A stretch of 41,764 nt of DNA from positions 1-41,764 of the forward strand of contig JAAZDK010000014.1 in assembly GCA_012512855.1 (NCBI GenBank). Direction: 5' to 3'. The notes under the pieces were generated by a model. That model saw nothing but the letters and a program-made list of their open reading frames with translations, was not told the origin of the DNA and did no database searches. A program made the translations under genes and the position numbers. How positions within the stretch are numbered: the first letter of the stretch is position 1; the number at the start of each line of letters is the position of its first letter. Positions 10,509 to 25,677 of the stretch are shown here, one piece after another. This DNA comes from Clostridiales bacterium. GTDB taxonomy: Bacteria; Bacillota; Clostridia; Lachnospirales; Lachnospiraceae.

Positions 10509-10797
10509 TGTTGTGACATTGATAGCGTTGAAGCGTGAGGTTGCTGCCCTTGAGGCAGGTATTTCCGTGGAGCGAAGGTCAAGTTATGAAAACTGGCGAC
10601 AAGTCACTGTACAATATAATCTTCTGCATATGGCAGATAAAACGTGTGAAGATAATCATAACAGGATCCATATAAGATTTACTGTTTAATCCGGCTTGCC
10701 CGGATTATTCCTAGAGGATATGAGGATACACACGGACGAGTGTACAGTCACCGCTTGTCGTACTGTAATTAAGTGCGAAAAGGAGGCGGCTTTTTTT
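10509..10797 (+). promoter_or_regulatory. Long untranslated leader of rpsJ
   Basis: About 290 nt between the predicted transcription start and rpsJ. Local hairpins seen: CTGCC/GGCAG (10544-10558), TCTGC/GCAGA (10623-10637), AATCCGG/CCGGATT (10688-10706, 5-nt loop), and TACAGT/ACTGTA (10743-10767) just before the ribosome site. GTGAC near 10514 can pair with GTCAC near 10605. An open frame across the first part (10474-10689) would start inside the -35 box and is not believed. A role in feedback by a ribosomal protein is plausible but unproven. Confidence 0.5.
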
Positions 10798-16435: not shown

Positions 16436-16804
16436 ATGATTCAAGCTGAATCAAGACTTAATGTTGCCGACAATACCGGTGCAAAAGAGCTGCTTTGCAT
16501 CAGAGTACTTGGCGGATCAACCAGAAGATATGCCAATATAGGCGATATCATCATTGCTTCGGTTAAAGATGCAACACCAGGCGGTGTTGTAAAGAAGGGC
16601 GATGTTGTTAAGGCTGTTGTTGTTCGTACTGTTAAGGGCACACGCCGTAAGGACGGTTCCTATATAAGATTTGATGAGAATGCTGCCGTTATTATCAAGG
16701 AAGACAAGAACCCCAGAGGAACTCGTATTTTTGGACCGGTAGCAAGAGAATTAAGAGAGAAACAGTTCATGAAGATCGTTTCTTTGGCACCAGAAGTGTT
16801 ATAG
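16436..16804 (+). CDS. rplN: 50S ribosomal protein L14
   Basis: 122 residues starting [28 protein letters not shown], with the conserved [34 protein letters not shown]14 forms the inter-subunit bridge with h14 and is the RsfS target. ATG 16436 has AAAGGAG 7 nt upstream and matches the family; the longer frame from 16379 is spacer. rplX follows after 14 nt. Confidence 0.97.
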
Positions 16805-24045: not shown

Positions 24046-24264
24046 ATGTCGAAAGCAGATGTTGTTGAAATCGAAGGTACAGTAATTGAGAAGCTGCCTA
24101 ATGCAATGTTTAGGGTTGAGTTGGAGAATGGACACAAGGTGCTTGCTCATATCAGCGGTAAGCTGCGTATGAATTTCATTAAGATTGTGCCGGGCGACAA
24201 GGTTACACTGGAACTGTCACCTTATGATTTGACAAAGGGCAGAATTATTTGGAGAGACAAATAA
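24046..24264 (+). CDS. infA: Translation initiation factor IF-1
   Basis: 72 residues, a single OB fold with the near-invariant [52 protein letters not shown]. It binds the 30S A site during initiation. GGGAGG site before ATG 24046. Usual Firmicute position between map and rpmJ. Confidence 0.98.
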
Positions 24265-24300
24265 CAGAGCAATTAATTCAATTTGGCTTGAAAATACTGC

Positions 24301-24329
24301 TTGCTATTGTAACTGTAAAATGTTATAAT
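24301..24329 (+). promoter_or_regulatory. Internal promoter before rpmJ and the alpha operon
   Basis: TTGCTA (24301-24306), 17 bp, TATAAT (24324-24329), in the infA-rpmJ gap. The -10 is perfect. The start near 24336 would give a leader of about 28 nt for rpmJ and would allow rpmJ through rplQ to be made independently of the upstream promoter. Confidence 0.7.
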
Positions 24330-24363
24330 AGTAGATGGACTTTTTTGAAAGGGGTGAATTACT

Positions 24364-24477
24364 GTGAAGGTAAGGTCATCAGTAAAACCAATTTGCGAGA
24401 AATGCAAGATCATAAGAAGGAAGGGTGCTATCAGAGTCATCTGCGAGAACCCCAAACACAAACAAAGACAAGGCTAA
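24364..24477 (+). CDS. rpmJ: 50S ribosomal protein L36, zinc form
   Basis: 37 residues: [20 protein letters not shown], then [17 protein letters not shown]. The zinc ligands C11, C14, C27 and H32 are all present. It is read from GTG 24364, with AAAGGGGTG about 8 nt upstream. L36 is the smallest large-subunit protein. A different frame of the same bases gives a longer open stretch (24249-24500) that is not a gene. An exceptional 395-nt spacer follows before rpsM. Confidence 0.97.
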
Positions 24478-24480
24478 TAT

Positions 24481-24517
24481 ACAATAGTTCGGGTAACTAA
24501 ATACTCGGTATTGTTTT
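24481..24517 (+). terminator. Weak hairpin with short T-run after rpmJ
   Basis: ACAATA (24481-24486) pairs with TATTGT (24509-24514), with an inner AGT/ACT, followed by TTT. The stem is weak; it may attenuate transcription into the spacer or do nothing. Confidence 0.3.
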
Positions 24518-24526
24518 ATATAAATT

Positions 24527-24614
24527 GTATCCCGTAATGAGTATGACATTTTTTGCTTGTACTTATAAGTAATGGTATACATGCTTATAAGCCCGGGTTT
24601 CATTGACGGGATAC
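24527..24614 (+). promoter_or_regulatory. First structured domain in the rpmJ-rpsM spacer
   Basis: GTATCCCGT (24527-24535) pairs perfectly with ACGGGATAC (24606-24614). The stem continues as AATG (24536-24539) with CATT (24601-24604) past a bulged G, 13 bp in all. Inside are two copies of the self-complementary CTTATAAG, about 20 nt apart, which can pair with each other. A loose TTGCTT-17-TATACA promoter-like pair (near 24554-24582) is also inside. Confidence 0.55.
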
Positions 24615-24649
24615 CATTTAAAGTCTTGCTTTCTGTGTTACAATTTATT

Positions 24650-24830
24650 CTGTCAGGGTGCTTTTTGTTAACCCGCAAAAGGTCTGGCAGAACATTGTGA
24701 TATTGTGGGCAGTGCTTATGTCTTCCCACTAGCACTGTTTTAAGCATCTGTTCCGTCATCACGGATGCTTAGCTGCAGGGGGTGCCCTGACAGTCACAGT
24801 TTAAAGCGGCTGATTTTTTATTTTTTGTTT
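24650..24830 (+). promoter_or_regulatory. Second structured domain and attenuator-like end upstream of rpsM
   Basis: A perfect 9-bp stem CTGTCAGGG (24650-24658) / CCCTGACAG (24785-24793) encloses three pairings: CAGTGC (24710-24715) with GCACTG (24732-24737); GTGGG (24705-24709) with CCCAC (24725-24729), crossing the former like a pseudoknot or alternative; and TAAGCATC (24741-24748) with GATGCTTA (24764-24771). CAGTC (24791-24795) can also pair with GGCTG (24808-24812), directly before a TTTTTTATTTTTTG run. That weak terminator-like hairpin shares bases with the closing stem. The layout suggests a regulatory leader for the alpha operon. Confidence 0.6.
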
Positions 24831-24872
24831 TGGAAGAGAAAGATAGCAAAATTTGGAGGTGTAATAAAACAC

Positions 24873-25241
24873 ATGGCTCGTATCAGTGGTGTAGATTTAC
24901 CGAGAGATAAGCGTATTGAGATAGGACTTACCTATATATATGGTATAGGCAGAGCAAGTGCTAACCGTATTCTTGCTGCTGCAAATGTTAACCCTGACAC
25001 CCGTGTTAGGGATTTAACAGATGAAGAAGTGGCCAGGATTCGTGATGTTATCGACGAAACCCAGTTGGTTGAAGGCGATTTGAGAAGAGAAGTCGCTCTT
25101 AATATCAAGAGACTTCAGGAAATCGGTTGCTACAGAGGTATCCGTCATAGAAAGGGACTTCCGGTTCGTGGTCAGAGAACAAAGACTAATGCCCGTACCA
25201 GAAAGGGACCTAGAAGGACAGTAGCAAATAAGAAGAAGTAA
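24873..25241 (+). CDS. rpsM: 30S ribosomal protein S13
   Basis: 122 residues. [26 protein letters not shown] start, helix-two-turn-helix region, and the conserved basic C-terminal tail [32 protein letters not shown] that contacts the P-site tRNA. ATG 24873 follows GGAGGTG; the frame is open from 24765, but only through structured spacer. First gene after the long leader, in the order rpsM-rpsK-rpsD-rpoA-rplQ. Confidence 0.97.
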
Positions 25242-25272
25242 TAATCGTATAATCCATAGGAGGGTTTGTTAG

Positions 25273-25677
25273 ATGGCTAAGAAAACAGGAACAACAGCCA
25301 AAAGAGTGACTAAGAGACGTGTTAAAAAGAATATAGAGCGTGGACAGGCACATATCAAGTCATCTTTTAATAATACAATCGTAACGTTGACCGATATGGA
25401 AGGCAACGCAATTTCCTGGGCAAGTGCAGGTGGATTGGGCTTCAGAGGCTCCAAGAAATCTACTGCATATGCTGCACAGATGGCAGCTGAGTCTGCAGCT
25501 AAGGCAGCTCTTGTTCATGGATTAAAATCAGTAGAAGTTATGGTAAAAGGACCTGGCCAGGGTCGCGAAGCAGCAATCCGTGCTCTTCAGGCATGTGGCA
25601 TAGAGGTAACAAGTATAAAGGATGTTACTCCGGTTCCTCATAACGGATGTCGTCCGCCAAAACGCAGAAGAGTCTGA
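25273..25677 (+). CDS. rpsK: 30S ribosomal protein S11
   Basis: 134 residues: [50 protein letters not shown], and the C-terminal [22 protein letters not shown]. It binds the platform near the Shine-Dalgarno helix. The N-terminal residues include a [16 protein letters not shown] basic stretch. GGAGGG site; 16 nt to rpsD. Confidence 0.97.

Follow-up and report, generated by a model that had tools for sequence, protein, structure and literature searches.

The closest described system is the S4-Clostridia motif (RF03140), an S4 leader found before rpsM-rpsK-rpsD-rpoA-rplQ in Clostridia (Eckert and Weinberg 2020, PMC7247131). Alpha_RBS (RF00140), the S4 site of the gammaproteobacterial alpha operon, is likewise a leader before rpsM with S4 as its known ligand, and S4 autoregulation also occurs in Firmicutes through the Bacillus-type rpsD leader, which is reported absent from Clostridia (PMC7247131). 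PMC11109978 counts 30 ribosomal leader candidates, and neither 'rpsM' nor 'Lachnospir' occurs in its main text. The start-site paper on C. phytofermentans (PMC5171806) gives the L10 leader among the Rfam 12 translation RNAs, and its legend names no alpha-operon leader among them. Our search of the literature, which took in few subscription papers, found no report of a leader like the one described below before rpsM in this family; novelty is judged here against Rfam 15 and the literature searched.

We analysed the gap between rpmJ and rpsM in a 41,764-nt stretch of DNA from a Clostridiales bacterium of the Lachnospiraceae (contig JAAZDK010000014.1, positions 1 to 41,764; assembly GCA_012512855.1, 86.87% complete), the whole of which we call the window. 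It holds the S10-spc-alpha ribosomal cluster; rplQ was recognised in its alpha operon by eye, without a scan. From the end of rpmJ (24477) to the start of rpsM (24873) the gap measures 395 nt, as stated by the first-pass annotation of this DNA. In all 37 loci showing both rpsM and rpoA, rpsD lies within the operon. Elsewhere in the window, the S10-Clostridia leader RF03136 is matched earlier in the same cluster (10520-10602, 85.6 bits), and positions 55-125 match the group II intron RF00029 with 48 bits.

Table 1. Features of the rpmJ-rpsM gap and the start of the alpha operon.
Feature	Position	Strand	Remark
Hairpin directly after rpmJ	24482..24523	+	tail TTTTATATAA
13-bp stem domain	24528..24613	+	local insertion, outside the conserved core
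Leader RNA conserved core	24625..24812	+	model R1 match, all same-genus loci
P0	24626..24632 with 24803-24809	+	5' strand UUGCUUU with AAAGCGG
P1	24638-24644 with 24694-24700	+
P1b (hairpin)	24648-24656 with 24684-24692	+
P2	24702..24800 (24702-24707 with 24795-24800)	+	encloses P3-P5
P3 (hairpin)	24708..24739	+	7/7 pairs compensated
P4 (hairpin)	24740..24772	+	loop CCGUCAU 24753-24759
P5 (hairpin)	24773..24793	+	CUGCAGGG / CCCUGACAG; 8/8 pairs compensated
GCGGCUG	24806..24812	+	the leader's most widely shared string
T-rich tract	24814..24827	+	relatives mostly carry a hairpin at the same place
rpsM ribosome-binding site	24855..24861	+	GGAGGUG
rpsM (S13)	24873..25241	+	first gene of operon rpsM-rpsK-rpsD-rpoA-rplQ

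The leader RNA in this gap is genuine, widespread and matches no Rfam leader. A scan of 24200-25300 gave zero leader matches at E<=10, which bears out the earlier remark that the layout is unlike known leaders; matches to mir-459, mir-208 and a CRISPR repeat in the same interval all fell far below cut-off and were set aside as chance-type. Eleven named loci likewise had no Rfam match at gathering threshold. Alpha_RBS did not match the window at E<=10, and in another family of the order one locus (L024) reached 30.3 bits with this model, below its cut-off of 38. The Bacillus-type leader, which precedes a separate rpsD gene, has a conserved GUAA, unlike the window RNA. RF03140 shares with the window RNA its gap, the operon downstream and the bacterial family; the motif itself, however, consists of 55 positions in two hairpins and looks different. 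It matched neither the window RNA (E<=10) nor anything in the genome of the window (E<=1), and the window RNA is therefore not an RF03140 member. It may do the same work.

That the gap holds a conserved structured RNA is close to certain. The whole gap has a folding energy of -131.7 kcal/mol (z -6.9), and none of 100 shuffles was as good. Our model of the core, R1 (162 positions, 50 pairs, built from 24 sequences), scored the window core at 122.2 bits and had no other match in its own genome. Like R2 below, R1 was built partly from sequences that it later found, and on these terms it matches 36 of 85 loci, 28 from the same genus and eight from other genera. In this 36-locus set 87.1% of cells pair, compared with 76.6% when shuffled and 33.8-47.2% for slid structures. 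Named loci were then added (79 searched, 75 matched), and pair counts were redone after removal of the one false row, the chance match L150, that had entered alignment A6. Across the resulting 65 distinct sequences, 2634 of 2944 pair cells are standard (89.5%) and compensatory changes occur in 38 of the 50 pairs, in alignments (A3, A6 and A7) that are fitted to the model structure. The first-pass annotation had pointed to covariance modelling across relatives; compensatory pairs were found, in another fold than the one it proposed, and its structured leader before an rpsD-bearing operon stands on a strong fold and a conserved, covarying core.

The conserved fold is nested, with the P1 hairpin beside P2 and with P3, P4 and P5 inside P2. 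P2 is paired in 390 of 390 cells and intact in all 65 sequences; five of its six pairs are compensated, and its types include AUUGUG/CACAAU, AGUGUG/CACACU, ACCGUG/CAUGGU and AUCGCA/UGUGAU. P1 is paired in 444 of 446 cells, with four of seven pairs compensated. P0 is paired in 453 of 455 cells with zero compensatory changes and is thus conserved yet unproven. The near-invariant strings AUUGUGAUA and UUUAAAGCGGCUG are located at the helix junction, and the P4 loop is present in 27 of 28 same-genus gaps. In a minimal form, L062, P2 is a plain hairpin and P3-P5 are missing. Taken by itself, the window sequence gives P2 a mean pair probability of 0.11, for the 3' strand of P2 has an alternative partner in CUGUG (24633-24637), to which it is paired in the lowest-energy fold of the window. 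This UUGUG/CUGUG strand beside P0 hardly varies among the 65 sequences, in all of which it can pair with the P2 3' strand at at least four of five positions. As the helices supported by relatives are all nested, a pseudoknot is not needed, and the crossing pairs suggested earlier find no support.

Other parts of the first-pass fold are present in the window but are not conserved. Its 13-bp stem (24528-24540 with 24600-24613, one bulged G) belongs to a stretch missing from 23 of 28 same-genus genomes, in which the core begins 43-63 nt after rpmJ, against 147 nt in the window. The start it assigned, 24527, therefore takes in a local insertion and is superseded by that of the core (24625-24812). 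Its 9-bp closing stem is an exact complement (CTGTCAGGG at 24650-24658, CCCTGACAG at 24785-24793), and in the window the two regions reach a longest contiguous pairing of 18 with G-U, which 0 of 100 shuffles match; the stem is nevertheless particular to the window sequence, the same regions in 34 relatives pairing like shuffles (13 to 98 of 100 as good). In the lowest-energy fold of the window core (-74.9 kcal/mol) its arms lie inside P1b and P5. Forcing the stem gives -71.5 kcal/mol, which is 3.4 kcal/mol worse, and the stem has a mean pair probability of 0.004. The first-pass annotation was right about the place and much of the idea, whereas the fold and switch that it proposed are not the conserved ones.

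In a DNA search, relatives matched the 3' half of the gap. Of 34 same-genus genomes, 28 gave an rpsM match (E<=1e-20), and all 28 have the core RNA, in gaps of 236-486 nt. Among 100 genomes sampled from the family, R1 matches 11 (the window and 10 other genera), each directly upstream of rpsM. In the order sample it matches three of 196: the window, G256 (before rpsM) and L150, the last rejected as a chance match antisense to a fliD-like gene (judged by eye). The exact 5' signature CTTGCTTTYTGTGTTACAAT occurs at 53 loci among about 85,000 species; its named hosts include Herbinix, Mobilitalea, Anaerocolumna, Lachnoclostridium phytofermentans, Anaerosporobacter, Anaeromicropila populeti and Eubacterium xylanophilum. 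An rpsM start, recognised by its start motif, lies 193-519 nt downstream in 49 of the 53, and tblastn found rpsM in 47. The remaining four comprise two apparent chance matches (L106 and L127), a locus that is too short (L099) and one whose contig stops short of rpsM (L113). R1 also matches 49 of the 53, missing L099, L106, L117 and L127; L117 has rpsM and the signature without an R1 match, and L113 has an R1 match with no rpsM on its contig.

We read the RNA as a cis-acting alpha-operon leader upstream of rpsM. An excess of an operon ribosomal protein, most likely S4, would bind the junction and lower expression of rpsM-rpsK-rpsD-rpoA-rplQ, with the output passing through translation start or mRNA stability and not through an intrinsic terminator. 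We put the probability of the whole reading, an alpha-operon ribosomal-protein leader that binds a protein of its operon, at roughly 0.6. Its more general part, a cis-regulatory ribosomal-protein leader, is likely: conserved, covarying structure upstream of ribosomal-protein genes, the general mark of such leaders, is what we found. An output without a terminator is probable to nearly the same degree. No consistent trapping of the ribosome-binding site was seen in 28 sequences. Against the reading count the P2 probability of 0.11 in the window, the lack of covariation in P0 and the variable spacing to rpsM.

S4 is the likeliest candidate ligand by analogy with described leaders, at odds slightly short of even, and the S4-sensing RNA suggested by the first-pass annotation stays a reasonable hypothesis. 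It is favoured because of the Clostridia S4-leader precedent and because the two leaders do not overlap. RF03140 matches 26 of the 100 family genomes (E<=0.1), 18 above its cut-off, and 25 of the 26 matches lie directly upstream of rpsM (G072 is the exception); none of these genomes is among the 11 with R1, an outcome whose chance is about 0.03, uncorrected for kinship. That S13, S11 and L17 are also encoded in the operon counts against S4. Elsewhere GCGGCUG lies upstream of RF03140 in the same leaders, so that this part of the RNA need not be the S4 site.

An alternative that we judge improbable places a promoter in the 5' block, with TGTGTTACAAT as an extended -10 or CTTGCTTT as a -35, so that the mRNA would start inside or after P1b. 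It draws on 14 of 62 other-family regions that have TTGnnn-N17-TATAAT, then TTGTG 6 nt further on and GCGGCTG beyond that; from the promoter-like -10, the mRNA of these regions is predicted to begin at UUGUGA/UUGUGU, a string that the window type carries between P1 and P2. CTTGCATTT would correspond to the -35 region of this arrangement, the spacing of which L036 fits, and a standard scan of 24400-24900 gives TTTAAA-16-TACAAT with TG at 24617-24644 (2 promoter-like sites versus 1.4 expected). However, P1 pairs covary across the block, which implies that 24638-24700 would be transcribed. Both sides of P1 change in L050, L055, L149, L021 and the L011 group, and several of these changes spoil the last T of the -10. 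In addition, a -10 about six nt before TTGTG is found in just 2 of 28 same-genus gaps.

Somewhat less probable still is a ligand-free element that would serve the processing or stability of a long transcript, placed between its spc and alpha portions. The hairpin after rpmJ with its U-rich tail, kept in 28 of 28 same-genus gaps, is consistent with it, as is the variable distance to rpsM, whereas the near-invariant strings and the many-helix junction exceed what such an element needs and known leaders occupy the same gap. The same hairpin is the sole terminator-like site that a standard scan sees in 24400-24900 and is possibly a weak end signal of the spc operon. A transcription attenuator, in which a change of pairing partners would release or sequester a hairpin ahead of the T-run, is very improbable: the window does have the weak hairpin (CAGTC 24791-24795 with GGCTG 24808-24812, 5 bp with a 12-nt loop) and T-rich tail (24814-24827) that the first-pass annotation described, sharing bases with its 9-bp stem as it said, and the 18-pair alternative helix could compete, but the hairpin and tail are not conserved, terminator-like sites follow the core in just 4 of 72 gaps, including that of the window, the scan sees none at the T-run, and the competing helix is missing from 34 relatives, which speaks against the attenuation placed at about 24813-24830.

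Besides the leader reading, a broader pattern emerges from the most widely shared string. AUUGUGAUA, AAAGCGGCUG and a 3' hairpin form a module before rpsM across the order. Genomes were fetched for 56 of 91 other-genus family members with rpsM, of which L055 is cut before rpmJ and was excluded from gap counts (55 remain), and for 60 of 183 order members with rpsM. GCGGCTG is present in all 28 same-genus gaps, in 43 of 55 other-genus family gaps and, among other families of the order, in 23 of 60 regions, which come from 10 of the 20 families; shuffled sequence would give 0.3 in 62. The figure of 23 in 60 carries less bias, L024 and L146 having been added because they matched. Its distance to rpsM ranges from 53 to 309 nt among loci. 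The hairpin that mostly follows GCGGCTG covaries, with 12 of 13 pairs compensated and 80.0% of cells paired compared with 68.0% when shuffled (43 distinct sequences in a model-fitted alignment), while RNAalifold on a MAFFT alignment of the hairpin gave zero pairs. Several GCGGCTG matches in one family, f11, have no clear hairpin. At E<=1 the hairpin model R2, whose structure was made by hand, matches 71 of the 100 family genomes, many weakly and elsewhere; in the order it matches 4 of 196 genomes at E<=0.01. Since it matches so few order genomes, we base the order-wide claim on the 7-mer and where it stands. A weak partial R2 match at window 16573-16590 is seen again in many genomes some 8 kb upstream of rpsM and is probably conserved coding sequence. 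GCGGCUG is complementary to CAGCCGC of the 16S 530 loop and might conceivably mimic 16S; by chance, however, roughly one 7-mer in ten has a complement in 16S, and our search for a same-genus 16S found none.

Many family leaders keep GCGGCUG and have other elements downstream, including RF03140 and an element with ACAUUUCA. The latter is conserved between rpmJ and rpsM in 11 of 56 other-genus gaps, where 0.07 would be expected (L043, L046, L047, L058, L064, L065, L073, L075, L090 and others). By eye, a different shared leader (UAUGG...AGGG...CCCUU) precedes rpsM in families f11, f16 and f17 (L169, L170, L172, L177, L178, L180, L182, L183 and L206-L208). GUCAU[UC], contained in the P4 loop, is enriched in other-genus gaps (19 of 56 versus 5.1 expected; L064, L066, L071, L076, L083 and L086), also within RF03140-bearing leaders, and is a possible shared protein site.

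These patterns would fit an ancient control module, AUUGUGAUA...GCGGCUG plus hairpin, that opens the alpha-operon mRNA, is common to half of the sampled other families in the order and has had different sensors attached to it by different lineages. We regard this as doubtful. If it were true, the sensors would be RF03140, the window-type P3-P5 domain and the ACAUUUCA element, and the module would be a general regulator of an undescribed kind (a start, stability or elongation signal) and not another S4 site. Proteins for small-subunit assembly and RNA polymerase alpha are linked through the alpha operon, and a large conserved leader without an Rfam leader match, in a gut and digester family, offers a testable RNA-protein pair. 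Because different leaders take each other's place at a single site, around a module that they have in common, leader turnover can be studied here.
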